Origin: Pseudomonas putida
Lineage (GTDB): Bacteria; Pseudomonadota; Gammaproteobacteria; Pseudomonadales; Pseudomonadaceae
Length of the DNA: 64,000 bases
Assembly: GCF_016406145.1 (NCBI RefSeq)
Contig: NZ_CP066306.1
Location: 1,860,001 to 1,924,000 of the forward strand
Direction of reading: 5' to 3'
The notes under the pieces are model-generated. The model was not told where the DNA came from and made no database searches. It saw only the letters and a list, made by a program, of their open reading frames with translations. Below, one piece after another: positions 16,543-36,401 of this stretch; positions within the stretch are counted from its first letter, which is position 1; each line of letters opens with the position of its first letter. The translations under genes were made by a program, and so were the position numbers.

Positions 16543-16596
16543 ATTGACCTCAATTGATCGTTGGGAGTGGATTAGCTAATTGAGATATTATGCTTA

Positions 16597-16619: not shown

Positions 16620-16663
16620 TAACTGGTGCTAAGCCGCCCGAACGTTGAGATCACTGAGGCCGT

Positions 16664-17893: not shown

Positions 17894-17977
17894 AAATATC
17901 TCTTTCGAGAATAAATACAAAAATATAGTCGTGAAAAGATCGCATATTTTGTTGGCTGAAGTCCGCAGACTGCGAGA

Positions 17978-17991
17978 ATGAAACGATTCAT
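17978..17991. promoter_or_regulatory. LacI-type operator O2
   Basis: ATGAAACGATTCAT differs from O1 (17880-17893) at two central positions. The centres are 98 bases apart, suiting repression by looping. The obvious candidate repressor is the LacI-family protein encoded at 21363, at the end of the gene run that these sites precede. Confidence 0.6.
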
Positions 17992-18023
17992 ATTTGCCGT
18001 TTTCCTAGGCAAATCTGGAGATC

Positions 18024-18260
18024 ATGATGGTCACTGCATCATTAGCCTGCGCTCGGTCAAGCACGTGGGCAGCCCTCGCCACTCTCTTATCTAGAGTCAC
18101 CGACCGCTCCGGCGCGGGGGCACTGGCTTCGCCACGCAAATCTCCTAACACCACCCGCTTACATGAACCCGAAATTTTCGGTGAGCCAGTGCGGCATTGG
18201 ACGCGTGTGAGCATCACCGCGTCTTGTTTCTGTTTGTTCAGCGCGGGGAATTTGGCATGA
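18024..18260 (+). CDS. Possible 78-codon leader ORF coupled to the SDR gene
   Basis: The frame starts with ATG after GGAGATC, a good ribosome site, and ends in TGA that overlaps the SDR start as ATGA. The predicted product (MMVTASLACARSST... to ...FSAGNLA) resembles nothing I know and has ordinary but unremarkable composition. It could be a short translated leader that couples translation to the downstream gene rather than a functional protein. It may equally be chance. Confidence 0.3.
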   Translation: MMVTASLACARSSTWAALATLLSRVTDRSGAGALASPRKSPNTTRLHEPEIFGEPVRHWTRVSITASCFCLFSAGNLA

Positions 18261-19027: not shown

Positions 19028-19090
19028 TCCAGCCGGGCTCGTATTCAACGTAACGATTTATCTCACAGTTTTTCAGCAGCGGGTGATGGC

Positions 19091-20194: not shown

Positions 20195-20240
20195 CCGCTA
20201 ATGCGGTACAGCTAATCCAATAATAAAAGAGGCTCAGAAA

Positions 20241-21203: not shown

Positions 21204-21362
21204 GTGTCTTTGCCAGGGGGCAGCAGAAGCGCTGCTCTCAGGTTTTTCTCTCCAACTAACGGCTCCCGAACGGCAGGCGGTTGGCTTATCATCCTCTGTG
21301 AAAAATCGAGGACGTTCTTCTGATCGTCCTGCCGCACTACGATCGAGGATGCTGAATCTCCA

Positions 21363-22394: not shown

Positions 22395-23338
22395 ACTCTT
22401 GGTGCTTCATTGGCATTGAACCAGCCTGGGCGGTACTCGCTCCAGGTCAGTTGCCAGAATCCCTCATGCTTGCGACGAAGTCGCATCCGGTAATGCGCGC
22501 CATAGAGAGGCGTGCCATCTTGCGTGTGTGAGTTTCCAGGAATGACTCTGCCGACAATCATTTCCGCTACACCCTTTTCCTCGTCGGACTTGATCTCCAG
22601 CACGTCCGCGAAATGCTGCATCCACGGCCAGGGCCTGCGAAATTCTTTGAAGGAGCCGATGATCGCGTGGCGCCCTTCAATAAGGCCCATCGGTTGGAAA
22701 TCGCCAGCGGCGTCGTTGGTAAAGCAATGAGCAAGCAGCTGCATGTCAGCTTGATCCAGCGCCCATGAGTAACGAGCGTAGGTTTCAGCAATACATTCCG
22801 CACTGGTCACCGAAGCCGTTGAGTTAGGGAAAGCAAGCCATGGCGAATTCAGCTCGCTAACGATGGTCGGGGCTGGGTCGCCAATCCTCCATCCGTCGTC
22901 ACCTGGTGGAAGCTGCCAGTGAATTGCAAGCGAGTAGTCCCCGGTTATCCAATTCAAGGCAATCAGCACGCTGTCGAGGCGCCAGGTGCCTGCTGTCTTT
23001 TTCATAGAGCCTGTGACAGTCATTCCAAATGCGAGCGTGGCCGACTTTTTGGCTTTGCTGATATGGCCATATGCGTAGAAACTGAAATTGGCGTCGGTTT
23101 CTCCACCACCCACATAGTGATTGGTTGCCTTCACTGAAAAGCCATCAGCCTTGGCACGGTCTTGCTGGAAAGCTCTGACAATCTTGCGTCCACCCTCATG
23201 AGCGGACATGTGGCTTGTAACCAGCTGGCAATTGTCAGTGAACATATCCCCAGCAGATTCCCAATAACCGCTCTCCCAGGCTTCCAGAAAGGTGGCTATA
23301 ACGCCCTTAATGTCGGTGCGATCACTTGAGCCGGTCAC
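22391..23338 (-). CDS. Tandem NTF2-like (SnoaL) domain protein
   Basis: The 315-aa protein appears to hold two NTF2-like folds. The first (about residues 1-145) has FLEAWESGYWESAGDMFTDN and YAYGHISKAKKSATLAFGM. The second (about 180-310) has CIAETYARYSWALDQADMQL and GRHAIIGSFKEFRRPWP. The domain family includes SnoaL-like cyclases, isomerases, dehydratases and small subunits of aromatic oxygenases. It overlaps the flavin-monooxygenase gene by 4 bases (ATGA), so the two proteins probably work on the same compound. No catalytic residues can be assigned from sequence. Confidence 0.78.
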   Translation of the reverse strand: MTGSSDRTDIKGVIATFLEAWESGYWESAGDMFTDNCQLVTSHMSAHEGGRKIVRAFQQDRAKADGFSVKATNHYVGGGETDANFSFYAYGHISKAKKSATLAFGMTVTGSMKKTAGTWRLDSVLIALNWITGDYSLAIHWQLPPGDDGWRIGDPAPTIVSELNSPWLAFPNSTASVTSAECIAETYARYSWALDQADMQLLAHCFTNDAAGDFQPMGLIEGRHAIIGSFKEFRRPWPWMQHFADVLEIKSDEEKGVAEMIVGRVIPGNSHTQDGTPLYGAHYRMRLRRKHEGFWQLTWSEYRPGWFNANEAPRV

Positions 23339-24339
23339 TGGGTCACCTGCGAGACAGGTTGGCCTATGGGAAAGTGTGGCAGGACATACTCAGCCATCTC
23401 CTCCAGGACATCAGCGGCTGGTCGCTGCAGAGGTTTGATATTCAGTGCGACGTGTGAAACACCTTCATCCTGTTGCCGTTTCCAGAGATCCACGAGAGCA
23501 TTACGCCCGATCCTTATTCCGTTGTAGCCGCGTTCCAGCGGTGTGCTCGGATCCTTCGCCAGATCGAAAAACGTCGCGTAGCCGTATGGTTTTGCATTGC
23601 CGGTCTGACTGGCAGAACGGAACTCGCGGATGAGGCCGGGCAAACGATTGAAATCGCTCAGATGCCAAATCCAGGCATCGGCATTATTGGCTATCCACTC
23701 AAGCGACTGACGGGCCCGGCCCACGACAATCATTGGGAGTCGAGGGCCAACTGGCTTGGGTACCATGTCTAGCAAGCCTTCCAGCTGGCCGAAAAGTTTG
23801 GTTGAGACGCTTGGGAAGCTGTTTTCAGTGACTGTCTTAATCAGCTCGAAGCCTTCCCGGTACCGTTCTTCTCTCGCTTCGAAATCAATCCCGAATGCTG
23901 GATATTCAATCGGTCGATCTCCGCTGGAGAGCCCTAACAAGAATCGTCCACCGGTGAGCTGGTCAACCGACACAGATTGTTTAGCAACGATCAACGGCTC
24001 GCGCAGTGGAAGAACGATTCCTGTCGTTCCCAAAGCAATTTTTTGAGTTACGGCTGCCAAATATCCAAGGTAGACGAAGGGGTCGATCATCTGCCCGGTG
24101 TCACCAAAGCTTGGATCGTAGAAGGGCACGTCCCTCATCCATAAACTTGCAAAACCAGCCTCATCTGCGATTCGAGCAAGGCGCTGATGATCCTGCAAAG
24201 TAGGGAACGGCGAATTTGGGTAGCCTTCCAGAGGCATGATGTATCCGAAGGTTAGGCCTTCGGGCTGGAACACTCGCGAATAGGCCGGGTGAGCTGCAAG
24301 CTCAGGACTGAGCTCAAGGGAAGGGCTGAGAGAAGTCAT
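23335..24339 (-). CDS. Luciferase-like (LLM class) flavin-dependent monooxygenase
   Basis: This 334-aa TIM-barrel enzyme is of the bacterial luciferase family: EAGFASLWMRDVP near residue 65, VTQKIALGTTGIVLPLREPL near 95, SVDQLTGGRFLLGLSSGDR near 125, and LPMIVVGRARQSLEWIANNADAW near 200. Such enzymes use reduced FMN and O2 for oxygenation, Baeyer-Villiger oxidation or C-S cleavage. No flavin reductase is adjacent. It heads a two-gene unit with the NTF2-like gene. Its upstream region carries the same GTATTGGGGAA motif as the esterase, which fits oxidation of a ketone to an ester followed by hydrolysis. Confidence 0.87.
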   Translation of the reverse strand: MTSLSPSLELSPELAAHPAYSRVFQPEGLTFGYIMPLEGYPNSPFPTLQDHQRLARIADEAGFASLWMRDVPFYDPSFGDTGQMIDPFVYLGYLAAVTQKIALGTTGIVLPLREPLIVAKQSVSVDQLTGGRFLLGLSSGDRPIEYPAFGIDFEAREERYREGFELIKTVTENSFPSVSTKLFGQLEGLLDMVPKPVGPRLPMIVVGRARQSLEWIANNADAWIWHLSDFNRLPGLIREFRSASQTGNAKPYGYATFFDLAKDPSTPLERGYNGIRIGRNALVDLWKRQQDEGVSHVALNIKPLQRPAADVLEEMAEYVLPHFPIGQPVSQVTQ

Positions 24340-24416
24340 TGCTAAACCTCATTATTTTAAGCCGATTACTACTGTGTAAGCGGCTTTCAGATGAACAGGT
24401 CTGCATGGTAGTGAAG

Positions 24417-24438
24417 GTATTGGGGAAAATGTGTCCCC
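24417..24438. promoter_or_regulatory. Second copy of the GTATTGGGGAA...TCCCC motif
   Basis: GTATTGGGGAA (24417-24427) and TCCCC (24434-24438) have the same spacing and the same orientation to their target gene as the motif at 16597-16619. The site is 78-99 bases upstream of the monooxygenase start, in the 352-base divergent region shared with the cupin gene. The LysR protein encoded at 16664 is the likely binder. Confidence 0.5.
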
Positions 24439-24567
24439 TCTGACGGGGCGCGATCCACGGGTGGCCGGTATCCACTCAATGAAAAATCTGCTGGGTCAAT
24501 CGCTTGAACTCGTGCGCAGTAGGCGTCTTAGATAAGTCGCGGCCTTCAACGGGATGAGCCCTACGCG

Positions 24568-24610
24568 CTGTGACGAGTGGTCACAGATGGTGTGAATTTC
24601 TGAGTATTCT
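24568..24610 (+). promoter_or_regulatory. Operator and promoter of the cupin gene
   Basis: CTGTGAC-GAGTG-GTCACAG (24568-24586) is a perfect palindrome with 7-base arms. TCACAG (24581-24586) and TATTCT (24605-24610), 18 bases apart, can act as -35 and -10. The same block GGTCACAG-nn-GGTGTG and the same 18-base spacing recur at 26458-26489 before the MFS gene, so both promoters probably share an activator, likely the LysR protein at 25311. Confidence 0.6.
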
Positions 24611-24691
24611 CCTGTGCGAGAGCATCACCTACTCTCACTCAGCGATTGAAATCCTGGCTCGCTCGCCAGTCACACGTTGAGAGAAATTATA

Positions 24692-25228
24692 ATGAATACG
24701 CCCGTTAAACCTGATGAACTTGCCATTCCTTATGCTTTGCCGCAGGTGCCTTTCATGTCTCCAGACATGGTGCATCCAGGCGTTATGACCACTTGGCTCG
24801 AAGACGATAATCTCTGGGTGCCTGTCACCAAGTCAGTATCTTTCAAACCACTACTGCTGAGCGTTAGCGGTGGGTACTACATCAACTTGCTTCGAGTGCG
24901 GCAGAGCGGGGTTTTGTCACGTCACCGCCACTCAGGTGCAGTGCATGCGATCGTGTTGAAGGGGCGTTGGTACTACCTCGAACACGATTGGGTTGCTGAT
25001 GAAGGCTCCTTTGCGTTCGAGCCGCCAGGGGAGACTCACACCCTGTTCGTCCCTGAAGATGTCGAAGAAATGATTACTTGGTTCCACGTTCAGGGTGGCT
25101 ACACTTACGTCGACCCGCAGGGTGTCGCGGTTGGCTATGAAGACGTTTTCACCAAGCTGGAAGCTGCCCGCAGCCATTACAAAAATTTGGGCTTGCCGGA
25201 CGATTATATCGAGCAGTTCATTCGCTGA
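24692..25228 (+). CDS. Cupin dioxygenase, 2,4'-dihydroxyacetophenone dioxygenase-like
   Basis: This 178-aa single cupin has metal ligands visible in SRHRHSGAVHAIVLKGRWYYLEHDW (His, His and Glu) and PPGETHTLFVPED (His). The layout is that of the 2,4'-dihydroxyacetophenone dioxygenase group, non-heme iron enzymes that cleave the C-C bond beside a ketone to give a carboxylic acid and formate. The start at 24692 (MNTPVKPDELAIPYA) has GAGAG upstream. A 5-codon longer reading is less likely. It is a single-gene unit with its own promoter and terminator. Activity on an alpha-hydroxyketone is inferred from family only. Confidence 0.75.
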   Translation: MNTPVKPDELAIPYALPQVPFMSPDMVHPGVMTTWLEDDNLWVPVTKSVSFKPLLLSVSGGYYINLLRVRQSGVLSRHRHSGAVHAIVLKGRWYYLEHDWVADEGSFAFEPPGETHTLFVPEDVEEMITWFHVQGGYTYVDPQGVAVGYEDVFTKLEAARSHYKNLGLPDDYIEQFIR

Positions 25229-25239
25229 TTCTGGTTCAA

Positions 25240-25265
25240 AAAAAACGCGCTACGGCGCGTTTTTT
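25240..25265 (+). terminator. Rho-independent terminator after the cupin gene
   Basis: ACGCGC-TACG-GCGCGT stem flanked by a run of A on the left and six T on the right, 12 bases after the cupin stop. Confidence 0.92.
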
Positions 25266-25310
25266 GTGTAGATAAACAGGTAGATTCAGTCGCGTAAGGA
25301 GCGTACCGAA

Positions 25311-26237
25311 ATGGATCAATACTCTCAAATGCTAGCCTTCATCTGGTCAACAGAGTGCGGAAGTTTTTCTGCTGCCGCCAGGGCGCATGAGATGACTCCG
25401 TCGGCCATCAGTAAATTGATAGCGCGGCTGGAGGATCGGCTTCGGGTTCGACTTTTCCAGAGGGGTTCCCGAGTCCTCACCCTTACGGAGGAGGGGGCTG
25501 CTTATCTGCGCAGTGCGAAAGCTGTGGTTGAGGCGATGAGTGAAGCTGACTCTCTGGCAGAAGGGCTTCCTTCAAGGGTCAGTGGCACGCTTCGCATCCA
25601 CACGATGACCTCTTTTGCGAAGCAGCAGATCGTGCCTTGGTTGCCGGAATTCCTCGACACTTATCCGGGTCTTGATGTCGAGATTCAGTTAGGCGCTCAG
25701 TTCATTGACCAGTTCGAGCAGGGATTGGACATAGCCATCCATAGCGGGATTCTTCCGAGCTCTTCCAGAATTGCAAAGAAGATAGGCGAATGTGAATGGT
25801 TGCTGTGTGCTTCACCTGACTATTTGGAAAAGTATGGAACACCGCAGCAGCCACAAGACCTGATGAATCATCGATGCTTTAACTTCAGTTTTGCCAGCCC
25901 TTGGAACAAATGGGCCTTTATCCAGGACGGTCTGGGTGTGACGACCCCTGTGAAGCCCCGAGGATCGTTTACCCAAGGCGAACTGCTGAGGGACATGGCC
26001 AAATCAGGCGCGGGTATAGTCCGCCTTGCAGATTTCCACATTGGAAAAGACATTCAGGACGGATCGCTGGTGCTCCTGCTTGACGAGTACAAAGCGGAGA
26101 TCTTGGAGCCTATTTACCTGCTTTATTCAGACCGTAAGCATCTGAGTCCTCGCATCCGGGTGTTCATCGAGTTTTTTCAGGAAAAATGGATTGCTCACCC
26201 ATGGAAAATCGTGAGACGACTGCCCGGAGCGGTTTGA
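25311..26237 (+). CDS. LysR-family transcriptional regulator
   Basis: This 308-aa regulator has the helix-turn-helix FSAAARAHEMTPSAISKLIARLEDRL and a LysR effector domain of the CrgA-like group, ending YLLYSDRKHLSPRIRVFIEFF. It resembles the regulator at 16664, particularly at the end, but is clearly distinct. It lies between the cupin gene and the MFS/hydrolase operon, both preceded by the same promoter block, and is the natural candidate to control them. Confidence 0.9.
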   Translation: MDQYSQMLAFIWSTECGSFSAAARAHEMTPSAISKLIARLEDRLRVRLFQRGSRVLTLTEEGAAYLRSAKAVVEAMSEADSLAEGLPSRVSGTLRIHTMTSFAKQQIVPWLPEFLDTYPGLDVEIQLGAQFIDQFEQGLDIAIHSGILPSSSRIAKKIGECEWLLCASPDYLEKYGTPQQPQDLMNHRCFNFSFASPWNKWAFIQDGLGVTTPVKPRGSFTQGELLRDMAKSGAGIVRLADFHIGKDIQDGSLVLLLDEYKAEILEPIYLLYSDRKHLSPRIRVFIEFFQEKWIAHPWKIVRRLPGAV

Positions 26238-26384
26238 TAGCCACTACGGCTCGGCGCCTACTTTCACTCTACCTCCGCGCAAGCGTGCAACTGTGGCTCC
26301 TGCACAAGGGAGCCAATACTCCACCGCTCTGATAATTTTCCCTCTTGCTCTGTGCCCAACAGAGCTCTCAAAAATTTGAGACCT

Positions 26385-26489
26385 GTTCCCCAGTAATTAC
26401 TTAGCCAAATGCTTCGCTGGCACCTCTCCCATTTTGTGCCACTGACCTGTTCCTGGCGGTCACAGCAGGTGTGCTTTGCCAGCTATATT
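26385..26489 (+). promoter_or_regulatory. Promoter and operator region of the MFS/hydrolase operon
   Basis: The 391-base gap 26238-26628 holds no gene. It contains TTCCCCAGTA (from 26386), a half-match to the 16597/24417 motif in the same orientation to its gene. It also has TGACC-N10-GGTCA (26443-26462) and TCACAG-18-TATATT (26460-26489). The last block matches the cupin promoter at 24581-24610 in sequence and spacing. The mRNA leader would be about 135 bases. Confidence 0.5.
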
Positions 26490-26628
26490 CAGCCCTGAAA
26501 TTGAGCCATAACCTCTGTCCATGGTGAGCGGTACGACAAGTGCTGGATCATCTCGGATGTTGAGGCGTATGTGTGCGAAACACCGATCCTCAGCCGGAGA
26601 ATAAAAATAAATACCCGGAGATATCCCC

Positions 26629-28017
26629 ATGGGATTTGCTCAAGACAAAATCGAAGCATTACCTGCGGTCAATCGTGTGCCAAAAGGAGCAGGTGCAGCC
26701 TCATGGGGCGCGATGGCCCTTTTGTGGCTCGTGTATGCCATGGATGCCAACTCCCGCCAGATGTTCTTCATGGTATTGCCCTCGATCACCAGCGAGTTCA
26801 AGACAAGCGCTGAGCTGACTGGACTGCTTGCCGCTTTCATCACGATCGCGACCTCTTTGATAGCCGTGCCTTGCATGATTTGGGCTGATAAAGGCGGTCA
26901 GGGATGGATGCGAAAATACCGCCACCTGCCAATCGTGATTGCTTACACGCTATTCACCTTTCTGACCGGCCTCAATTTCTTGACCGGCTCCCTTGGAGTG
27001 CTGGTCGCGCTGCAAGTGATCTCTCACGCATTTGGGGGGGCTGGCGAAGCCATCGAAGTCACCTCCTTGTCTGAGTGGTGGTCGAAGGAGCGCCGTGGTT
27101 TCGCCCTAGGACTTCATCACACCGGATACCCTTGGGGCACATTGATCGGTGGCTTGGCGATCAGTGCTCTACTCCACGCTTACGGCCCGGAAAATTGGCG
27201 TTTGGCATTCCTGCTGTTCCCTGTGCCGATGATCATCATCTTTTCGGTCTACTGGTGGTTCAGTACGAAGAAGCGTTACGAATCCTTTGTTGAACACGCT
27301 CAAGCCGTGGGTGAGACCCCTCCATCAATGGAAGCTGTAAAGGGTGTGGTGGAGGTGCCCAAAGGCGCGTTCAAGTCTGCAATGAAAAATCCGAACATCT
27401 CAGCTATCGCTCTAATCTCGATGTTCGCAATCGTTGGCTACTTCGGCATCAGCTTCTGGTTACCCCAGTACCTGGCATTTGTTGCCCATTACAACTTCGC
27501 AGAGGCGGCTGCTTACTCGGTGCTCTTCACGATCACCGGTGGTATCGGCCAGATCGTTTGGGGATGGATCTCAGACCGTGCAGGCCGAAAACTTTGCCTA
27601 GTGCTTGTTTTCGCGTGGCTTGCGGTGGGCATGTACCTCTTCAAATACTCATCCGTCAGCCTGACTTGGCTTATCGCGATTCAGTTGTTTGCTGGGTTCG
27701 CAATGAACGCGCCCTACACGTTGGTCTATGCCATTGCGTTTGACTCTGCGAAGCAAGGCACGACTGGCCTGGCGGGCTCAATCGTCAACGTCGGTATTTA
27801 CGCCGGTGGTTTTGGGCCATTCGTGATCGGGATGTTCATCGGCGCAGGTGGTGGCTTTGAGCAGTCTGCGGGCTACAACTACGCGCTCTACTTTATTTCC
27901 GGCCTCATGGTACTGGCAGCCATCATTACCATTTTCTTCACCCGTGAAACTACCGGCTGGTTTCTTAAGTACGACAAAGCGCTGGTATCGAAGTCCTCTT
28001 GCAATATGGGTTTGTAA
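26629..28017 (+). CDS. MFS transporter
   Basis: This is a 462-aa inner-membrane permease with about 12 hydrophobic segments. It has a cytoplasmic N-terminus of ~25 residues, the inter-helix motif region around WADKGGQGW, and its C-half counterpart WGWISDRAGRKLCL (MFS motif A). A long central loop (about residues 220-255) separates the halves. Family resemblance is to organic-acid and aromatic-acid importers. It is followed after 63 bases by the SCP2-hydrolase fusion gene, making an import-plus-hydrolysis operon. A GAGATATCCCC leader gives the start. Confidence 0.87.
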   Translation: MGFAQDKIEALPAVNRVPKGAGAASWGAMALLWLVYAMDANSRQMFFMVLPSITSEFKTSAELTGLLAAFITIATSLIAVPCMIWADKGGQGWMRKYRHLPIVIAYTLFTFLTGLNFLTGSLGVLVALQVISHAFGGAGEAIEVTSLSEWWSKERRGFALGLHHTGYPWGTLIGGLAISALLHAYGPENWRLAFLLFPVPMIIIFSVYWWFSTKKRYESFVEHAQAVGETPPSMEAVKGVVEVPKGAFKSAMKNPNISAIALISMFAIVGYFGISFWLPQYLAFVAHYNFAEAAAYSVLFTITGGIGQIVWGWISDRAGRKLCLVLVFAWLAVGMYLFKYSSVSLTWLIAIQLFAGFAMNAPYTLVYAIAFDSAKQGTTGLAGSIVNVGIYAGGFGPFVIGMFIGAGGGFEQSAGYNYALYFISGLMVLAAIITIFFTRETTGWFLKYDKALVSKSSCNMGL

Positions 28018-28080
28018 CGAACCGATCGTACCTGCATTTACAAGAAAATCCCTTGGGGATAGCTAAGCTAGGAGAAAGTC

Positions 28081-29301
28081 ATGACCCTTATTAATGATGC
28101 CAAATGGTTGGGCCAGTTCGCCGACGAGTTAAACGGTGATGCTGATTGGACTGCCGCTGCTCGCTATTTTGATGGGCGCATTCAATTCAAGCACAGCACC
28201 GGTTTCTCAACGCTTGCGGTTCTCGCCGGTAAAGTCGTTGCGGTTTACCCGGAAGGAAGCCCGTTGGGCGCTGACATCATCGTGTCTGGTGCTGATGATG
28301 AGTGGCAGCGCGTTCTTGACGGAAAGATCGACTGGTTTGAAGCGTTGTCCCCTGGATTGGGAAAACTTGAGCTTGAGGGCAACGTGGTCGCTGCATGGCA
28401 GTACGTAGATGTGATGGCTCGCGCGTTCGACGCAATGAAGCGTGTAGGGAAAACCGATACAAACCCTCCGCTCTCCTATTCTCCCGGGCCGAAGCCGTCG
28501 GGCAAAGAGACGGTAGGACGGTACATCACCGTGGATGGGATTCGCGTTTACTACGAAGAAGCAGGGGAGGGACGTCCACTCGTTTGCTTCCACGCGGCAT
28601 CACAAGATTCTCTAATGTACAGGCACGTACTGGACGGTCTGTCAGATGAGTTCCGCGTCATTGCAATTGACGCTCCCGGGCACAGCAAATCAGAGCTACC
28701 CGAATCAGGCCCATTCCACAGCCTCACTCGCCATGCGGAGTTCAATGAGCACCTTATGGAGGCCTTGGGACTTGAGAAACCCGCCATCATGGGATGCTCG
28801 ATGGGCGGCAATCTGGTGCTGGAATTGGGGGCACGTCGACCCGATGCGTACAGTGCAATCATCTCAGCCGAAGGGGCAGATTTCACCCCAACGGTTTCGG
28901 AGTTCTTCCTCGATATGTTGCTCATGAATGGGCCAGAGATCATCGGTGCCTGGTCTCGTTCGATGACGGGCAATCGCACTCCACCAGATCGTGCGAAGGA
29001 GGTGGTGTGGCAGATTTCGCGCACCACGCCGCAGGTGATGAAAGGTGACCTGACAGGTTATGCGAACTTTGATCAGCGGCAACAGGTTGGAAAGATCAAA
29101 GCGCCTGTTCTACTTCTGCGCGGTGACGCGGATTGGTTGGTGTACCAAGAGAAGGTTGAGGAAACAGCATCTCGCATTCCCGGCAGTAAGATCGCCGTGC
29201 TTGCAGGTACTGGCCACTATCCAATGACTGAAAACCCGCTGGAGTTCTGTGACACGGTACGCGCGTTCCTTCGTGAAGCGGGTCACGGCCACGCCGACTG
29301 A
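28081..29301 (+). CDS. Fusion of an SCP2-like domain and an alpha/beta hydrolase
   Basis: This is a 406-aa protein. Residues 1-~120 (YFDGRIQFKHSTGF, DEWQRVLDGKIDWFEALSPG, GKLELEGNVVAAW) have the pattern of a sterol-carrier-protein-2 fold, a small lipid/hydrophobe-binding domain. Residues ~145-400 are an alpha/beta hydrolase with oxyanion region CFHAASQDS, nucleophile Ser in MGCSMGGNLVLE, Asp in LLRGDADWLV and His in AGTGHYPMTE. The likely action is C-C or ester bond hydrolysis, with the first domain presenting a hydrophobic substrate. It is co-transcribed with the MFS gene. Confidence 0.8.
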   Translation: MTLINDAKWLGQFADELNGDADWTAAARYFDGRIQFKHSTGFSTLAVLAGKVVAVYPEGSPLGADIIVSGADDEWQRVLDGKIDWFEALSPGLGKLELEGNVVAAWQYVDVMARAFDAMKRVGKTDTNPPLSYSPGPKPSGKETVGRYITVDGIRVYYEEAGEGRPLVCFHAASQDSLMYRHVLDGLSDEFRVIAIDAPGHSKSELPESGPFHSLTRHAEFNEHLMEALGLEKPAIMGCSMGGNLVLELGARRPDAYSAIISAEGADFTPTVSEFFLDMLLMNGPEIIGAWSRSMTGNRTPPDRAKEVVWQISRTTPQVMKGDLTGYANFDQRQQVGKIKAPVLLLRGDADWLVYQEKVEETASRIPGSKIAVLAGTGHYPMTENPLEFCDTVRAFLREAGHGHAD

Positions 29302-29505: not shown

Positions 29506-29522
29506 GTGATCTGTGATCACAG
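29506..29522. promoter_or_regulatory. Putative GntR operator of the hydroxy-acid operon
   Basis: GTGAT-C-TGTGATCACAG contains a perfect 12-base palindrome (CTGTGATCACAG, 29511-29522). The 17-base block recurs with one difference at 36385-36401 before the SDR gene, and partly at 35401. It lies 102 bases before the dehydrogenase start. The binder is inferred to be the GntR protein encoded at 34631. Confidence 0.6.
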
Positions 29523-29623
29523 TGGATAGCATCTGTCTCAGAGCGAGCATCTGTGCGTCAGCTTTGATCACCAACCGCTCAAACGATTACTCCTAAACAT
29601 AAATACAAAATTTGGAGAACATC

Positions 29624-30586
29624 ATGCGAACTACAGCTTCATCTGCGACCGAGCGTGGCCCCATTGCAATCGTTGGCGCGGGCTTGATTGGGCGAGCTTG
29701 GGCGATTGTTTTTGCTCGGGCAGGACATCCGGTGCGTTTGCACGACATGGATCTGCAGACAATGCAGAACAGCCATGCCTACATCGAAGCGAGACTTAAT
29801 GAGCTCGCAGAATTCGATCTTCTTAATGACGCCCCTCTCACCGTACTGGCACGCATTACTTGCGTTCCCGACTTGGCTGATGCGCTACGTGACGTGGTGC
29901 TTGTACAGGAAAACGTTCGGGAAACGGTAGAGGCGAAAATCGACATCTTCAGTCGAATGGACGCGTTGGCGCCCAAGGACGCGATTCTTGCCAGTTCAAC
30001 TTCATGGTTACCGGCCTCCGAGTTCACAAAAGATCTACCAGGTCGGGGGCGCTGCGTAGTTGCACACCCTACCAACCCGCCTTACTTAGTTCCTCTTGTA
30101 GAGCTATGCCCTGCGCCGTGGACAGAATCTGAGGTGATGGTTCGAGCGCATGAGATCTACACCGCAGCTGGGCAGAGCCCTGTCGTTCTATCCCGAGAGA
30201 TCCATGGCTTCTTGTTGAACCGAGTTCAAGCCGCAGTCCTCAACGAATGCTTCAAATTGCATGAGGAAGGCTTTGCTAGCTCGGAGGACATTGATCGGGT
30301 GCTCAAGGATGGACTCGCCCTCCGCTGGTCATTTATGGGCCCCTTCGAAACCATCGATCTCAACGCCCCTGCCGGCGTATCTGACTATGCCAAACGCTAC
30401 GGTCAGCAAAATCGCGAAACGATCAATTCCGAAAATGCTTTTGACTGGTCGGAATCAGCAGTCGCTCGAGTACATGACGAGCGCCGCCAAAAACTTGAAC
30501 TCGAAGGAATTGCCTTGCGATCCGCTTGGCGTGACCGCCGCCTTATGGCTCTCGCTGCGCACAAGCGTCAAGCACCAAATTCCTGA
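29624..30586 (+). CDS. 3-hydroxyacyl-CoA dehydrogenase family protein (L-carnitine/L-gulonate 3-dehydrogenase-like)
   Basis: This 320-aa NAD-dependent dehydrogenase has Rossmann motif IAIVGAGLIGRAWAIVFARAG, the VQENVRETVEAK helix, catalytic His in VVAHPTNPPYLVPLVELCP, and the C-terminal dimer domain. The short single-domain form with NPPYLVPLVE is that of L-carnitine dehydrogenase and lambda-crystallin/L-gulonate 3-dehydrogenase. Both oxidise the 3-OH of a free acid rather than a CoA ester. The start at 29624 (MRTTASSATERG) has TTTGGAG upstream; the TTG at 29612 is not needed. Partnership with BKACE next door fits oxidation to a 3-keto acid. Substrate is not determined. Confidence 0.85.
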   Translation: MRTTASSATERGPIAIVGAGLIGRAWAIVFARAGHPVRLHDMDLQTMQNSHAYIEARLNELAEFDLLNDAPLTVLARITCVPDLADALRDVVLVQENVRETVEAKIDIFSRMDALAPKDAILASSTSWLPASEFTKDLPGRGRCVVAHPTNPPYLVPLVELCPAPWTESEVMVRAHEIYTAAGQSPVVLSREIHGFLLNRVQAAVLNECFKLHEEGFASSEDIDRVLKDGLALRWSFMGPFETIDLNAPAGVSDYAKRYGQQNRETINSENAFDWSESAVARVHDERRQKLELEGIALRSAWRDRRLMALAAHKRQAPNS

Positions 30587-30636
30587 CGACATCACTCCAT
30601 CCTGAACACCAAAATAAAAGTAACCAGGAGATCACC

Positions 30637-31563
30637 ATGGCTCGTAAAGTCATCATCACTTGCGCGGTCACCGGCGCAATTCATACGCCTTCTATGTCCC
30701 GTTACCTGCCGGTAACACCAGGTCAAATTGCCGAAGCGGCGATTGGTGCTGCTGAGGCTGGTGCCTCAATTGTTCACCTACACGCTCGTAATCCAATTGA
30801 TGGCAGCCCCTCTCAGGATCCGGAACTATTTAAGCAGTTTCTACCCGCTATCAAAGAGGCTAGCGATGTGGTGATCAACCTGACTACAGGTGGCGCACCG
30901 ACAATGTCGCTTGAAGATCGACTTCGTCCAGCACATCAGTTCAAACCGGAAGTGGCCTCACTGAACATGGGCACGATGAACATGGGTCTTTACCCAATGC
31001 TCAATCGGTTTAAGGAGTTCAAACACGCTTGGGAGGAACCATACCTCGCCGGCAGCCATGACCGCATTTTCAAAAATACATTTACCGACATAGCCCACAT
31101 CCTCGAGTCATGCAGTGAGAATGGTACCCGTTTTGAAATCGAATGCTATGACATTGGGCATCTCTACACCGCTGCACATTTCATTGATCGTGGCCTCATC
31201 AAACCCCCGTTTTTGATCCAATCGGTTTTCGGCATTTTGGGCGGTATCGGCGGGCACCCTGAGGACGTCCTGCATATGCGGCGCACAGCTGATCGTCTTT
31301 TCGGAGATGACTATCAGTGGTCGGTTCTTCCAGCAGGAAAGCAGCAGATGAGCATTGGTGCTCAATCAGCCACGCTTGGAGGACACGTGCGTGTGGGTCT
31401 TGAAGACTCGCTTTGGGACGGGCCGGGCCAATTGGCAAAAAGCAACGCCGATCAAGTCTCGCGTATGCGCAAAATTCTCGAAGGGCTTTCACTTGAAGTG
31501 GCGACACCTGCTGACGCGAGGGAAATCCTGAAGCTCAAAGGTGGCGATAACGTCAATTTCTAA
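30637..31563 (+). CDS. BKACE family beta-keto acid cleavage enzyme (DUF849)
   Basis: This 308-aa zinc-dependent enzyme condenses a beta-keto acid with acetyl-CoA to give acetoacetate and a new CoA ester. The family blocks are present: IITCAVTGAIHTPSMSRYLPVTP, HLHARNPIDGSPSQD (metal His pair), VVINLTTGGAPTMSLEDRL, FEIECYDIGHL and GGHVRVGLEDSLWDGPGQLAKSN. The Glu of VRVGLED typically contacts the substrate amino group or its equivalent. In carnitine clusters a BKACE follows the dehydrogenase as here, but the usual CoA-transferase and thioesterase genes are absent. The adjoining dehydratase points to a different hydroxy acid. Confidence 0.9.
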   Translation: MARKVIITCAVTGAIHTPSMSRYLPVTPGQIAEAAIGAAEAGASIVHLHARNPIDGSPSQDPELFKQFLPAIKEASDVVINLTTGGAPTMSLEDRLRPAHQFKPEVASLNMGTMNMGLYPMLNRFKEFKHAWEEPYLAGSHDRIFKNTFTDIAHILESCSENGTRFEIECYDIGHLYTAAHFIDRGLIKPPFLIQSVFGILGGIGGHPEDVLHMRRTADRLFGDDYQWSVLPAGKQQMSIGAQSATLGGHVRVGLEDSLWDGPGQLAKSNADQVSRMRKILEGLSLEVATPADAREILKLKGGDNVNF

Positions 31564-31673
31564 ACGCGGGTACTCATCCCCGTAAAGCCTATCTAGAGGA
31601 TATTTTGATAACTAAAGGTCGCGGCACAACACTCGCGCCTTAGCAATTTATCCTCATGAGGAGAACATGAATC

Positions 31674-33044
31674 ATGTTAGCTACGACCCATACAAAAACA
31701 CAAAAGGGACAGTCGCTGAACGCTTTAATGTTTCGCAAATTGATGCCGATGTTAATTGTTGCTTACATTATAAGCTTTCTAGACAGAACTAACATTTCAC
31801 TTGCCAAAACACACATGGCAGTAGACTTGAGTATTTCCGCTGCCGCCTACGGTTTCGGTGCAGGGCTCTTCTTCCTTACTTATGCACTCATGGAGGTACC
31901 TAGTAACCTGATCATGCATCGGGTAGGTGCCCGACTCTGGATCACCAGGATCATGATCACCTGGGGGTTGTTGTCTGCCGGTATGGCCTTCATTACCGAT
32001 GAGACTACGTTTTACATTGCCCGCGCACTACTGGGCGCAGCTGAAGCCGGATTGTTCCCAGGTGTAATGCTCTATTTAACCTATTGGTTTGGTCGTGAGC
32101 AAAGGGCACGTGCCAGTGGCTATTTTCTAATCGGGGTCTGTCTCGCGAACATCATCAGCGGGCCGGTTGGCGGGCTGCTGTTAGAGATGGATGGAATCTG
32201 GGGTTGGCACGGCTGGCAGTGGCTGTTCTTCTTGGAGGGAATTCCAGCTGTTCTATTCTCCGTCGTGATTTGGCGAAAGCTTCCGGACGGCCCATCTACG
32301 GCAACTTGGCTATCAAAGGAACAAGCCACTGAAGTAGAGCAAGTTCTGAAAAAAGAACATGATGAAGAAATCGCCTCCGGCAATGTTGGTCATTCTTTTA
32401 AGGGTGTTCTTAAAATCCCTCAAATTTGGCTTGCTATCGCGGTGTACTTCCTCCACCAAGTTAGTGTTTATTCAGTAATTTTCTTCTTGCCCGGCATCAT
32501 CGGCACGTATGGAGGCTTGTCATCGCTACAGATAGGATTGTTAAACTCAATCCCATGGATAGCAGCAGCACTCGGCGCAGCGTTTCTTCCAAAGTATGCA
32601 ACTACTCCGAAAATCTCACGCAAAATAATGTTCGGTGGTCTGCTCCTGATGTCGGCTGGATTGACCCTCGCGGCCTATACCACTCCACTGATAGCACTAA
32701 TAGGATTTACCCTTACGGCATCGATGTTTTTCGTTGTTCAGCCTGTGATATTTCTCTTCGCCAGCTCAAGGCTGGCGGGAGTAGGTATGGCGGCGGGTCT
32801 GGCGTTAGTGAATACCTTTGGTATTACTGGTGGCTTCTTCGGCCCTTCACTTCTTGGCTTCGTTGAGCAAACTACTGGGAGTACGAAGAATGGACTCATC
32901 ATTGTAGCGGCTCTTTTAACGCTCGCCGCATTCCTGAGTTTGAAACTACGTCAGGCACAAGAAACGATTACTACAAAAACGCGGGACAACATTGTATTGT
33001 CCCAGGTTGCGCCGTGTATTACTGATAATGCGAGGACAAAATGA
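31674..33044 (+). CDS. MFS transporter, anion:cation symporter (ACS) family
   Basis: This is a 456-aa permease of about 12 membrane segments. The ACS-type start IISFLDRTNISLAKTHM, then MEVPSNLIMHRVGARLWI and RALLGAAEAGLFPGVMLYLTYWF, matches transporters for sugar acids, tartrate and phthalate-like acids. GAGGAG lies just before the start at 31674. Another ATG at 31667 is out of frame. The coding sequence is clearly more AT-rich than its neighbours. It overlaps the UxaA-family gene by 4 bases (ATGA), tying uptake to the dehydratase. Confidence 0.9.
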   Translation: MLATTHTKTQKGQSLNALMFRKLMPMLIVAYIISFLDRTNISLAKTHMAVDLSISAAAYGFGAGLFFLTYALMEVPSNLIMHRVGARLWITRIMITWGLLSAGMAFITDETTFYIARALLGAAEAGLFPGVMLYLTYWFGREQRARASGYFLIGVCLANIISGPVGGLLLEMDGIWGWHGWQWLFFLEGIPAVLFSVVIWRKLPDGPSTATWLSKEQATEVEQVLKKEHDEEIASGNVGHSFKGVLKIPQIWLAIAVYFLHQVSVYSVIFFLPGIIGTYGGLSSLQIGLLNSIPWIAAALGAAFLPKYATTPKISRKIMFGGLLLMSAGLTLAAYTTPLIALIGFTLTASMFFVVQPVIFLFASSRLAGVGMAAGLALVNTFGITGGFFGPSLLGFVEQTTGSTKNGLIIVAALLTLAAFLSLKLRQAQETITTKTRDNIVLSQVAPCITDNARTK

Positions 33045-34567
33045 AGAGTACATCCCTGGTACTTAAACTACATCCCGACGACAACGTTGCAATCGCACGT
33101 GCTTCGATACCTCAAGGAACCGTGGTTACGGAGTTCGGTAATATCGTGGTGTTCGCCGATGTCCCCGCAGCGCACAAGATTGCCCTTGCACACGTAAACC
33201 CAGGTGATCCTGTTCTGCGTTACGGCCAGATTATTGGCTTTGCTACTAAATCCATTGAGCCAGGCGATTACGTGCATACGCACAATCTGGAGATGGCGAC
33301 GTTCGAGCGAGACTACGCGTTCGGCGAGGATGCCAAAGTCGCGTCGCCTGCAGCCTCTCCTGTGACATTCCAAGGTTTCGTCCGCGCTGACGGGCGAGTA
33401 GCAACTCGAAACTACATTGGTGTAGTAAGCACGGTGAACTGCTCCTCCACTGTTACCAAAATGGTGGTTGAACACTTCTCGCGAAACGGTGTTCTGGATG
33501 CTTACCCAAACGTGGACGGTGTGGTGCCGATCACCCACAGCTTCGGTTGCTGCATAGAGCACAATGGCGAGGGGGTGAACCAACTGCGGCGCACGCTAGG
33601 CGGGTTCATCAAGCACGCCAACTTCGCTGGCGTGGTGGTCATCGGCCTTGGCTGTGAAGCCAACCAGATGGGCGCGCTGTTCATGGCCCAGGGCATCGAG
33701 ACCGGCAAGCTTATCGCTCCTGTGGTCATCCAAGACGTTGGCGGAACCCGCAAGGCAGCGGATGCCGCCATTGCCGCTGTGGAATCGATGCTGCCGGTTG
33801 CCAACGAGTGCCGACGCGAGCCGGTCTCGGCGCGGCACCTGACCGTTGCGCTCCAGTGCGGCGGTTCAGACGGATATTCGGGCATCACGGCCAACCCCGC
33901 CCTCGGTGTGGCTGTCGATATGCTCGTAGCGCAAGGTGGAACGGCCATCCTTAGCGAAACGCCGGAGATCTACGGTGCTGAACACCTGCTAACTCGTCGC
34001 GCTGCAACCCGTGAGGTCGGCCAGGGTATCGTAGACCTTATCAAATGGTGGGAAAGCTACGCAGACCGCGAAAAAGGCAGTATCGATAACAACCCCACGC
34101 CTGGTAACAAGGCCGGCGGTCTGACGACCATTCTTGAAAAGTCTCTAGGCGCAGTTGCCAAAAGTGGTTCGTCAGCACTCATGGGCGTTTATCGTTACGC
34201 CGAGCCCATTACAGTCCGAGGCTTGGTGTTCATGGATGCGCCTGGCTATGATCCTATGGGTGCCACTGGCCAAATCGCCAGCGGCGCAAATCTCGTTGCG
34301 TTCACCACCGGACGCGGCTCGTGCTTTGGCGCCAAACCTGCTCCTTCGATCAAGCTTGCGACGAATACCAAAATGTACACTCGCATGAAGGATGATATGG
34401 ACATCAACTGCGGGGATGTCATGGATGGTGATGCCACCCTTGAATCGAAGGGTAAAGAGATTTTCGACATGCTCATACGCGTGGCTTCTGGGGAAAAATC
34501 TAAAAGCGAGGCGTTGGGCGTCGGCAATGAAGAAACAGTGCCTTGGATGATCGGCGCTCAGATGTAA
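33041..34567 (+). CDS. UxaA-family altronate/hydroxy-acid dehydratase
   Basis: This 508-aa full-length form has an N-terminal SAF domain (about residues 10-90, IARASIPQGTVV, IEPGDYVHTHNL) and the large C-terminal UxaA domain with RNYIGVVSTVNCSSTV, THSFGCCIEHNGEG, VVIGLGCEANQMG, GGSDGYSGITANPALG and CFGAKPAPSIKLATNT. Members dehydrate alpha,beta-dihydroxy acids such as altronate or galactarate; the same family includes sulfolactate sulfo-lyase. It is translationally coupled to the ACS permease. With the dehydrogenase and BKACE it suggests a sugar-acid or related route. The region 33590-33860 is visibly more GC-rich than the rest of the gene. Confidence 0.88.
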   Translation: MKSTSLVLKLHPDDNVAIARASIPQGTVVTEFGNIVVFADVPAAHKIALAHVNPGDPVLRYGQIIGFATKSIEPGDYVHTHNLEMATFERDYAFGEDAKVASPAASPVTFQGFVRADGRVATRNYIGVVSTVNCSSTVTKMVVEHFSRNGVLDAYPNVDGVVPITHSFGCCIEHNGEGVNQLRRTLGGFIKHANFAGVVVIGLGCEANQMGALFMAQGIETGKLIAPVVIQDVGGTRKAADAAIAAVESMLPVANECRREPVSARHLTVALQCGGSDGYSGITANPALGVAVDMLVAQGGTAILSETPEIYGAEHLLTRRAATREVGQGIVDLIKWWESYADREKGSIDNNPTPGNKAGGLTTILEKSLGAVAKSGSSALMGVYRYAEPITVRGLVFMDAPGYDPMGATGQIASGANLVAFTTGRGSCFGAKPAPSIKLATNTKMYTRMKDDMDINCGDVMDGDATLESKGKEIFDMLIRVASGEKSKSEALGVGNEETVPWMIGAQM

Positions 34568-34580
34568 TAAGCGAGCAAAA

Positions 34581-34615
34581 AAAGAGGCGCCCTGATACCA
34601 GAGCGCCTCTTTTAA
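34581..34615 (+). terminator. Rho-independent terminator after the UxaA-family gene
   Basis: AAAGAGGCGC (34581-34590) and GCGCCTCTTT (34603-34612) form a 10-bp perfect stem with a 12-base loop and flanking A/T runs. It can work for this operon and for the convergent GntR gene. Confidence 0.92.
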
Positions 34616-34630
34616 AACATGTTGGTGGAA

Positions 34631-35350
34631 TTAATCAGCTTCTACAGGTTTGTGCGCATCGGCAACGATCAGCGCCCCTGTATTCAGGATAAACTCGGCA
34701 GCACTTTTGATGTCATCTTGCAGTGATTCACGGGCGGCAACGGAGTCCCCCTTCTTTAAAGCATCCACCATCGCTGCGTGATGGCTGGCTTGCACTCGCT
34801 GAACCACACGCTCAGTGCCAGATCGTAGGTCATAGTTGATGATAGGCCCTATTCTCAGCCACAGGGACTCAACTATCTGTAGCAGGATGGGCATGTCCGC
34901 CTGATTATAAATTGCGAAATGCAATTCTTTGTTTAGGGTGATCAGTCGTGACTCATCGGGAGCGCCTTTAGCAAACTCCGCGCAAAATGCCTCGTGTATC
35001 TTTTCTATCTCAGCCAGTGCCTGCGAATCAACAAGCTCCGCAGCCCGAGCCGCAGCTTGGCCCTCAAGATTCAACCGGATACTGGTGATTTCCCGGAACT
35101 GGCTGATAGTCAGCACAGGAACGCGAATATATCGATTTGCCGCCATCTCAAGCGCTTGCTCAGCGACCAACCTGTGAACCGCTTCTCGCACTGGCATGAC
35201 GCTAACACCTAGAGCGTCCGCTATAGATCTGAGCGAGAGCTTTTCCCCTGGCATAACGCGTCCGCTTATCAGCAGGTCACGCAGTTGGGTATAAACGTCC
35301 GCGCTGAGCGTCTGGCGGATCATGGGCGTTACGAGTGTGGATAGGTTCAT
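34631..35350 (-). CDS. GntR-family (FCD) transcriptional regulator
   Basis: This 239-aa regulator has an N-terminal winged helix (YTQLRDLLISGRVMPGEKLSLRSIADALGVS...VREAVHRL, residues ~18-80) and a helical FCD effector domain with metal-binding His residues around LHFAIYNQ and SHHAAMVDAL. FCD proteins commonly repress sugar-acid and carboxylate pathways and respond to the acid. It is convergent with the dehydratase operon. Palindromes at 29506 and 36385 precede the two nearby operons, and a weaker one at 35401 lies upstream of this gene. Confidence 0.9.
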   Translation of the reverse strand: MNLSTLVTPMIRQTLSADVYTQLRDLLISGRVMPGEKLSLRSIADALGVSVMPVREAVHRLVAEQALEMAANRYIRVPVLTISQFREITSIRLNLEGQAAARAAELVDSQALAEIEKIHEAFCAEFAKGAPDESRLITLNKELHFAIYNQADMPILLQIVESLWLRIGPIINYDLRSGTERVVQRVQASHHAAMVDALKKGDSVAARESLQDDIKSAAEFILNTGALIVADAHKPVEAD

Positions 35351-35400
35351 GATGAGAATTATAGGCAGGTTCGATCAGCCGGCATAGGAAAATGAGACCT

Positions 35401-35412
35401 CTGTGATCATGG
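35401..35412. promoter_or_regulatory. Weak copy of the GntR-type palindrome
   Basis: CTGTGATCATGG matches the first nine bases of the CTGTGATCACAG palindrome seen at 29511. It lies 51 bases upstream of the gntR start, so it may serve autoregulation. Confidence 0.35.
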
Positions 35413-35517
35413 ATGTGCTGCTATCGAATTGACAGAATTGGGGAGGACGAGCTCTCTAGCACACGCACAGCAAACGTCTCGCTACCAAGGTCGGTGGCGA
35501 GACGTAGGCCTGACTGA

Positions 35518-36306
35518 TCAAAGATACTCAACATTACCGTCGATGCTGATCGCTTGTCCTGTCACATTGTTACCAGCAGGAGAGCATAGAAATAAGGCCA
35601 TTGCGGCCACGTCTTCGGGTGGAGTCATCCGGCGCAATGAGATTTTCTTCAAAATTTGTTGGCGCATCTCCGGCTCGGTAATGCCTAACTGTTTGGCGCG
35701 GTCACTGATCACGCGATCCTGGCGAGGGCCCTCGACGATGCCGGGCAGCAGTGCGTTGACTCGAATGTCTTTTTCGCCCAACTCGGCTGCCAATGACTTC
35801 ATAAGACCTACGATGGCCCACTTGGTCGCTGCGTATGGAGTTCGCCAAGCGTAACCTAAGCGACCCGCGACGGATGAAATATGAATGATGTGTGCGTGTT
35901 CTGACTTTGTCAGGAGGGGGACAGCATTATGAGCGAAACGATACTGCGCATTGAGATTGATGTCTATTGTCTGTTCCCATTCGGCATCGCTAATTTTGTC
36001 GATTCCGCCGGTCGGCCCTGCTATGCCTGCATTGTTGATAAGGACATCAAGTCCATCCACCCACTCCTGTTGTATCTCGAAAACTCGCTTGATCTGGGCA
36101 GTGTCGGAGACGTCAGCTAATGTGGCCAAAGCCTCAGGGTGGCGCTCACGAAACTGTACGATCGCCTGCTCGCTTACATCACAGACATGGACTCTTGCCC
36201 CAATTTCGAGATATGCAGCCGCGATCGATTCTCCAATACCTGCTGCACCACCAGAAATCAAAACCCTCAACCCGCTATAGGGTGTCAGCCGCTTCATCAC
36301 GTTCAT
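35518..36306 (-). CDS. SDR-family oxidoreductase
   Basis: This classical short-chain dehydrogenase of about 262 aa has SGGAAGIGESIAAAYLEIG, VCDVSE (Asp, NAD preference), INNAGIAGPTGGI, the catalytic Ser in ISSVAGRLGYA, YAATKWAIVG, PGIVEGPRQDRVI and the late GQAISIDGNVEYL. The start at 36306 (MNVMKRLTPYSG) has AGGT about 10 bases upstream. ATG at 36318 or 36297 is possible. It is a single-gene unit with the GntR-type palindrome at 36385-36401 upstream, so it most likely belongs to the hydroxy-acid pathway, perhaps oxidising or reducing a neighbouring hydroxyl. Confidence 0.87.
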   Translation of the reverse strand: MNVMKRLTPYSGLRVLISGGAAGIGESIAAAYLEIGARVHVCDVSEQAIVQFRERHPEALATLADVSDTAQIKRVFEIQQEWVDGLDVLINNAGIAGPTGGIDKISDAEWEQTIDINLNAQYRFAHNAVPLLTKSEHAHIIHISSVAGRLGYAWRTPYAATKWAIVGLMKSLAAELGEKDIRVNALLPGIVEGPRQDRVISDRAKQLGITEPEMRQQILKKISLRRMTPPEDVAAMALFLCSPAGNNVTGQAISIDGNVEYL

Positions 36307-36384
36307 AGCTAAATGCACCTGTCTTATTTTTGTTTATGAATTCTTCCTCGGCTACGGCCTGCATAGCCAAGAAACGCTTTATAC

Positions 36385-36401
36385 GTGATATGTGATCACA
36401 G
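36385..36401. promoter_or_regulatory. Putative GntR operator of the SDR gene
   Basis: GTGAT-A-TGTGATCACAG is identical to the block at 29506-29522 except for the single base between the two parts. It lies about 80 bases upstream of the SDR start on the minus strand. Confidence 0.6.

Follow-up and report, generated by a model that had tools for sequence, protein, structure and literature searches.

What could a beta-keto acid cleavage enzyme (BKACE) and a dehydratase of the UxaA family be doing in one gene cassette? The question is raised by a 64,000-nucleotide stretch of the Pseudomonas putida genome (assembly GCF_016406145.1, contig NZ_CP066306.1, positions 1,860,001 to 1,924,000 of the forward strand; hereafter the window), in which genes for a 3-hydroxyacid dehydrogenase (DH), a BKACE, a permease (MFS), a UxaA/GarD-superfamily dehydratase (UxaA), a GntR regulator and an SDR dehydrogenase lie together. 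We propose, with a probability of roughly 0.55, that the cassette is a regulon under GntR control, carried on a low-GC island, which serves 2-deoxyaldonates: 2-deoxy-D-ribonate and/or one of its stereoisomers or chain-length analogues. Its genes point to a novel variation on the BKACE route of the deoxyribonate type, to which a UxaA dehydratase has been added. A first-pass annotation of the same DNA knew of no described pathway joining UxaA and BKACE. Searches of the openly licensed PMC literature likewise showed no paper on a joint UxaA-BKACE pathway; PMC4922564, the one among the papers listed that has both BKACE-side and UxaA-side terms, is, in the part of its text considered, an enzyme-clustering method paper.

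A six-gene cassette in two convergent operons

The six genes of the first-pass list (3-hydroxyacid dehydrogenase, BKACE, permease, UxaA, GntR, SDR) were all confirmed. Each has an open frame and the domains expected of it, from the DH through the SDR (29624–36306):

29624–30586, + strand: DH, a 3-hydroxyacid dehydrogenase of the lambda-crystallin / L-gulonate 3-dehydrogenase type (3HCDH_N, 3HCDH)
30637–31563, + strand: BKACE (DUF849), beta-keto acid cleavage enzyme (PF05853)
31674–33044, + strand: MFS permease of the anion:cation symporter (sugar-acid) type (profile match)
33041–34567, + strand: UxaA/GarD-superfamily dehydratase (SAF, GD_AH_second, GD_AH_C)
34631–35350, − strand: GntR/FCD regulator, probable pathway sensor (domains; a Ramlibacter partner, 65% identical, lies beside the same operator)
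35518–36306, − strand: SDR dehydrogenase resembling the deoxyribonate-dehydrogenase type (domains and homologues)

The DH and SDR start codons are chosen ATGs inside slightly longer open frames. The genes are arranged as two convergent operons, DH-BKACE-MFS-UxaA on the + strand and SDR-GntR on the − strand with the SDR upstream of GntR, which places the SDR and BKACE about 4 kb apart in different operons. The + strand genes look like a single operon, in which the end of MFS and the start of UxaA share 4 bp. The permease scores 268 bits against a D-galactonate-transporter model, under its cut-off of 395. GC content is 52.5% in the cassette compared to 62–63% in the window flanks.

A rare palindrome links the two operons

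Script comparison of the promoter regions identified a palindrome, TGTGATCACA, upstream of both operons; a partial copy lies upstream of GntR:

29512–29521, no strand: palindrome TGTGATCACA, probable GntR operator, some 100 bp ahead of the DH start codon
35402–35409, no strand: partial operator TGATCACA, upstream of GntR
36391–36400, no strand: palindrome TGTGATCACA, probable operator, some 85 bp ahead of the SDR start codon

The 64-kb window contains exactly two copies of TGTGATCACA (0.04 expected), a count reached in none of 100 shuffles, and the span drawn by the first-pass annotation (29506–36401) encloses both copies. The 8-mer TGATCACA has eight window matches (2.13 expected), four of which belong to the two full palindromes. 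Across the 5.85-Mb genome TGTGATCACA is present in three places; the third was rejected as an additional target because it sits within a 566-codon amidohydrolase-like frame.

The palindrome also accompanies related genes elsewhere. It precedes both operons in 10 of the 11 other cassette loci (L001-L003, L116, L117, L119-L123), while L118 keeps the SDR-side copy alone. TGTGATCACA is found upstream of GntR-SDR-BKACE in all five scanned loci of the deoxyribonate type described below (L125-L129). In Caballeronia, L163 and L164 carry it ahead of GntR, and L186 has one copy in front of the SDR and a second separating GntR from MFS-UxaA. Ramlibacter L195 has three sites. We infer that the FCD-GntR regulator binds TGTGATCACA as its operator and that the window gene set is very probably co-regulated. 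The homologous sets of Caballeronia and Ramlibacter are marked by TGTGATCACA too, so that co-regulation of UxaA with BKACE seems to extend over three genera, these two and Pseudomonas.

Resemblance to deoxyribonate catabolism

The first-pass annotation missed that a BKACE has already been described in a sugar-acid route. For the deoxyribonate operon of P. simiae (PS417_07245-07265), passages of Price 2019 (PMC6365646) report that mutants show the SDR and BKACE to be needed on deoxyribonate and that the SDR oxidises deoxyribonate in vitro; the paper proposes that cleavage yields glyceryl-CoA and reports an important role for glycerate kinase on deoxyribonate. According to the same paper, P. putida KT2440 has no genes for deoxyribonate oxidation. 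The window SDR, BKACE and MFS resemble such clusters, with identities to the common Pseudomonas cluster of 72–77% for SDR, 70–74% for BKACE and 60–64% for MFS (the last from L125-L129). In a survey of 398 Pseudomonas genomes, with at most six SDR candidates scored per genome, all 61 SDR homologues (at least 56% identity, E <= 1e-80) have a BKACE no more than 6 kb away. Not counting the cassette copies themselves, forty-six of the genomes carry the 70–77% SDR-BKACE pair, each with a 72–77% SDR beside a 70–74% BKACE. Gene context was read over 20 kb in five of these 46 (L125-L129), and in all five GntR-SDR-BKACE-MFS run in one direction. L127 and L128 also have a second MFS and a frame for an SGL-type lactonase, which Pfam confirms in L127; theirs is the order published for P. 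simiae (PMC6365646). Protein searches with the SDR and the L127 BKACE returned generic names only.

The cassette and the P. simiae pathway have in common an SDR, a BKACE and an MFS permease, with 3-oxidation followed by BKACE cleavage, and loci of the P. simiae gene order also carry GntR and TGTGATCACA. By homology to loci of that order, the cassette SDR is of the deoxyribonate-dehydrogenase type and linked to a BKACE. Compared to the P. simiae operon, whose proteins enter the comparison by gene order only, the cassette adds a lambda-crystallin-type DH and UxaA, has one MFS and no SGL lactonase, and carries a BKACE of another clade. A Paraburkholderia bryophila cluster, as presented in passages of PMC6365646, likewise brings together a BKACE, a transporter, an SDR deoxyribonate dehydrogenase and a second dehydrogenase, but with an AraC regulator and no UxaA. 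The similarly composed P. tropica locus (L165) has a second SDR-type match instead of a lambda-crystallin-type DH. The cassette may be a mosaic: its SDR and MFS are closest to the deoxyribonate type, whereas Ramlibacter holds the nearer relatives of its BKACE, DH and GntR and an 84% match to its UxaA.

Predicted pathway

The substrates of BKACEs are free 3-keto acids, and those of lambda-crystallin-type enzymes are free hydroxy acids, so that a step from DH or SDR to BKACE would be chemically direct. The substrate is probably a 2-deoxyaldonate, which the MFS permease would import. The SDR and/or the DH would then oxidise C3 to give a 2-deoxy-3-keto acid, and BKACE with acetyl-CoA would convert this to acetoacetate and a hydroxyacyl-CoA (glyceryl-CoA for a C5 acid). 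Cellular thioesterases or CoA-transferases would free glycerate from glyceryl-CoA. UxaA would presumably act on a related 2,3-dihydroxy acid as part of the same regulon.

The DH passes model PRK06129 (476 bits, cut-off 347) and keeps the Ser/His/Glu/Asn catalytic motifs. Its best match in the PDB is lambda-crystallin (3ado, 208 bits), the nearest solved structure; the window DH differs in being bacterial and operonic with a BKACE. Lambda-crystallin oxidises an L-configured C3 hydroxyl, whereas 2-deoxy-D-ribonate carries a D-configured one, so DH and SDR may serve opposite C3 configurations and feed one 3-keto acid. SDR, DH and BKACE occur together in four lineages (Pseudomonas, Caballeronia, Ramlibacter and G607), a grouping that suits either two stereo-opposite dehydrogenases or sequential use.

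The window BKACE scores 361 bits against PF05853 (gathering score 24.8) and 459 bits to BKACE15 (PDB 8rio), which is reported to accept 5-hydroxy-beta-ketohexanoate. It has residues H47/H49, E169, R252 and E256, of which we take H47/H49 and E256 to be zinc ligands. E169 and R252 align with E171 and R254 of BKACE15, and E171 is the tested catalytic base of that enzyme according to passages of PMC11961710. The window BKACE is predicted to be equipped with a catalytic base for beta-keto acid cleavage with acetyl-CoA. It should also be noted that the genome holds three BKACE genes, in the window, at about 5.418 Mb on C1 and at about 5.001 Mb. The last of these (60% identical; L114 7027-11560, G000 C1 at about 5.00 Mb) belongs to a second DH-BKACE-MFS set, with a different DH, behind an AraC-like gene, and UxaA and SDR gave no matches at that set.

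The UxaA dehydratase

UxaA scores 390 bits against the galactarate dehydratase equivalog, under the cut-off of 731, and is classed as a superfamily member rather than as GarD. By motif and spacing, and not by alignment to a characterised enzyme, Cys134, Cys170/171, Cys205 and Cys273 fit the four conserved iron cysteines described for UxaA/GarD dehydratases in passages of PMC6336799. The dehydratases treated there (UxaA, GarD, D-idonate and D-arabinonate dehydratase) have the three-domain family and the iron-site cysteines in common with the window enzyme, which differs from them in its distinct clade and in its place within a BKACE regulon, in a cassette without a keto-deoxy-acid enzyme. In a tree of 82 proteins, the window UxaA falls with nine others into a long-stemmed clade (100/100), and 13 signature positions, among them T400A and S407G, split this clade from the other 72 proteins. 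Six clade members lie outside the Pseudomonas cassettes, one being the Caballeronia copy of the regulon.

Dehydrations by the UxaA family yield 2-keto-3-deoxy (alpha-keto) acids, not beta-keto acids. UxaA is therefore unlikely to sit between DH and BKACE, and we rejected a direct supply of BKACE substrate by UxaA since the described superfamily products are of the 2-keto-3-deoxy kind. This divides the route proposed in the first-pass annotation: import and 3-oxidation, with BKACE then giving acetoacetate and an acyl-CoA, survive as the best route, whereas dehydration followed by BKACE does not.

Occurrence in other genomes

The contig scan gave at least 80 loci and is no census. Class-wide searches covered 369 genomes each and found DH in two and BKACE in seven at the set thresholds. 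Many neighbouring genes in the fetched loci (for example in L005-L008 and L178, and the porin and TctC-like genes of L195) were named by eye. Within Pseudomonas, BKACE at 99% identity or more and UxaA at 96% or more are found in exactly the same nine of the 398 genomes, and these near-identical copies represent one event. UxaA at 70% or more is present in ten, the tenth being G085, which is without the cassette BKACE. Among the matches listed, the closest named loci (UxaA 93–97% identical) are in Pseudomonas sp. Irchel s3b2, P. fluorescens PS862 and Pseudomonas sp. 7P_10.2_Bac1.

More distant copies retain the same partners. In Caballeronia terrestris, contig C153 carries UxaA (74%), MFS (58%), GntR (35%) and SDR (62%) and ends in an N-terminal BKACE part, and contig C69 opens with a C-terminal BKACE part followed by DH (55%); the two are probably the ends of one locus. 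Ramlibacter sp. WS9 (L195) has, on one strand, ABC-transporter genes (named by eye), an SGL-like lactonase 54% identical to the L163 SGL protein, SDR (48%), DH (73%) and BKACE (87%). GntR (65%) is divergent there, and UxaA (84%) lies outside the BKACE operon, behind a TctC-like gene. An NCBIfam scan of this TctC-like gene and of the sugar substrate-binding protein gave no match. UxaA homologues at 80–86% occur in Comamonadaceae, Variovorax and Pseudorhodoferax included (among the best 120 of 7997 matches), with context readable in one of the 14 genomes searched, Ramlibacter WS9. Two related loci are without UxaA: Caballeronia L163, with GntR, SDR, BKACE, a metallo-beta-lactamase-fold gene, a sugar-type ABC transporter, DH and an SGL lactonase, and G607, with SDR, DH and BKACE behind ABC-transporter genes (named by eye). 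The first-pass annotation had made its case depend on UxaA and BKACE co-occurring elsewhere, and a neighbourhood search finds them together in the nine Pseudomonas genomes (one event), Caballeronia terrestris and Ramlibacter WS9. The adjacency of the cassette genes is apparently more than chance.

A hexapeptide-repeat gene lies between GntR and SDR in L002 (13043-13612, Pfam-confirmed) and L123 (15152-15721). In Caballeronia L185 (1282-7693), DH is followed by genes for a 2-hydroxyacid dehydrogenase, a 3-hydroxybutyrate-dehydrogenase-type SDR, a CoA-transferase and an LldD-type dehydrogenase. This CoA-transferase could shift CoA from glyceryl-CoA to acetoacetate.

Evidence against the proposal and alternative explanations

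Several observations weigh against a 2-deoxyaldonate regulon of the deoxyribonate type. A domain scan found no lactonase (SGL), CoA-transferase, thioesterase or glycerate kinase gene in the cassette, and the lactonase and two MFS genes of the P. simiae operon have as their counterpart a single MFS. The deoxyribonate-type label itself is based on two loci and on family, not on direct comparison with the P. simiae proteins; L125, L126 and L129 are without lactonase and second MFS. No UxaA was found in the five scanned deoxyribonate-type loci, so UxaA is not needed there. NCBIfam names the subgroup of the window BKACE for another substrate, 3,5-dioxohexanoate (NF053538, 536 bits, cut-off 430); the model is broad, since the other, 60% identical BKACE of the genome passes too (510 bits). 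While 70–74% identical to deoxyribonate-type BKACEs (a comparison with loci of that type, not with the P. simiae protein), the cassette BKACE forms a clade with that of Ramlibacter (100/99) from which the deoxyribonate-type Pseudomonas sequences are separate, and its specificity may therefore differ. Three of 49 Pseudomonas BKACE matches at 70–74%, as well as L179 and L180 at 73–74%, have no SDR nearby; after the tree and these matches, BKACE identity alone was rejected as proof of deoxyribonate specificity. Two of the nine cassette genomes (G247 and G365) also carry the 70–77% pair, so the cassette substrate is probably not identical to that of the deoxyribonate-type cluster. In G275 (L118), whose upstream genes differ, DH is reduced to its C-terminal part (9290-9874, frame open from 9290) and the other five cassette genes are intact, showing that DH can be lost. 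Finally, TGTGATCACA was looked for and not found in L185, L178 and L165.

The first-pass annotation described the DH as carnitine-dehydrogenase-like and the set as half of a carnitine cluster. Carnitine catabolic clusters do combine the same superfamilies, a 3HCDH-type dehydrogenase and a BKACE, as would be expected if the cassette cleaved dehydrocarnitine or served a related 3-hydroxy-4-amino acid. However, the window DH scores 133 bits on the L-carnitine dehydrogenase model PRK07066 (cut-off 414), so the likeness is one of superfamily only, and a carnitine-type cluster is located elsewhere in the genome, at about 5.418 Mb on C1. That cluster has an L-carnitine dehydrogenase (632 bits on the same model), a BKACE 35% identical to the window BKACE, and a thioesterase-like gene resembling the C-terminal part of a fused carnitine enzyme; no betainyl-CoA thioesterase gene was found in the window cassette by domain scan. 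We rejected the carnitine reading, which is scarcely credible given a lambda-crystallin-like DH and a separate cluster of its own kind. It is also very unlikely that the genes are accidental neighbours without joint function. The low-GC island with its unrelated-looking modules and the near identity of the nine Pseudomonas copies would fit such an accident, but rare operators are common to both operons and the same partners recur at 48–87% identity in Ramlibacter and 35–74% in Caballeronia.

Two further explanations concern the role of UxaA and are compatible with a 2-deoxyaldonate regulon. UxaA may dehydrate a C5/C6 aldonate to a 2-keto-3-deoxy acid handled elsewhere, while SDR/DH-BKACE handles a 2-deoxyaldonate arising beside this branch, with one regulator for both; we hold this tentatively, at somewhat under even odds. 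A peroxide reaction that could connect such branches is mentioned in passages of Price 2019, where 2-keto-3-deoxygluconate and peroxide are proposed to give deoxyribonate (PMC6365646). The wider UxaA class (55–64% identity, L009-L080) lies near FAH-family, aldehyde-dehydrogenase, IlvD/Edd, DapA-type and TRAP genes (named by eye). Within the clade, L005 is beside a KdgT-type permease and L006 is near xylonate-type genes, including IlvD/Edd and a XylX-like gene (named by eye). The position of the Ramlibacter UxaA downstream of the TctC-like gene, off the BKACE operon, also suits parallel branches. Such branches are less easily reconciled with the separate long-stemmed clade of the window UxaA, with the absence of a 2-keto-3-deoxy acid enzyme from the window cassette and with the lack of a decarboxylating enzyme connecting the two. 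The second explanation, which we consider unlikely, is that UxaA turns BKACE-derived glycerate into pyruvate and by-passes glycerate kinase. The glyceryl-CoA proposed for deoxyribonate cleavage and the importance of glycerate kinase there would accord with this. Two of the six outside clade members (G085 and L007) adjoin glycolate/lactate-type permeases, L008 is near a dihydroxyacetone kinase, and no keto-deoxy-acid aldolase was seen beside the six (open reading frames named by eye; L007 spans only 3.5 kb). These contexts and the 13 signature positions that set the clade apart would permit a C3 substrate. Sulfolactate sulfo-lyase is a C3 lyase that gives pyruvate. This enzyme is included in the superfamily according to passages of PMC6336799. 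On the other side stand the KdgT-type and xylonate-type neighbours of L005 and L006, and the statement in an excerpt of a 2020 paper that no described enzyme dehydrates D-glycerate specifically with high activity (PMC6982167). For UxaA, the C5/C6-aldonate branch is more likely than glycerate dehydration. A more doubtful proposal makes the UxaA clade a dedicated glycerate dehydratase in a kinase-free route, in which SDR (D-C3) and DH (L-C3) would feed 2-deoxy-3-ketoaldonates to BKACE, giving acetoacetate and glyceryl-CoA, then glycerate, then pyruvate.

Neighbouring genes

Upstream of the cassette, a module at 23335-29301 contains luciferase-like, Cupin_7, LysR, MFS and alpha/beta-hydrolase genes and is kept in 9 of the 11 other cassette loci. 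It was left out of the pathway because L003 and L118 do not have it and no full palindrome accompanies it. In Caballeronia L185, homologues of its alpha/beta-hydrolase, cupin and MFS genes (75–84%) recur about 7–10 kb from DH. Some members of the cupin family are dioxygenases that cleave diketones, and Cupin_7-type homologues (56–58%) lie near UxaA of the 56% class in L061, L063 and L068, two Cupriavidus records and an alphaproteobacterial metagenome-assembled genome. The rest of the low-GC island (15616-23338) encodes an alpha/beta hydrolase, a FabG-like SDR, a glycerol-dehydrogenase-like enzyme, and cyclase-family and SnoaL-like proteins, together with LysR-like and LacI-like genes (named by eye).

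Implications

Common operators in three genera would tie UxaA/GarD dehydratases to the BKACE family, and the GntR protein and TGTGATCACA offer a ready regulator-operator pair for finding the inducer. Should UxaA turn out to dehydrate glycerate, the enzyme would provide an activity that others, according to an excerpt of PMC6982167, have sought by improving a promiscuous dehydratase. The proposal also predicts that 2-deoxyaldonates beyond deoxyribonate serve as carbon sources.

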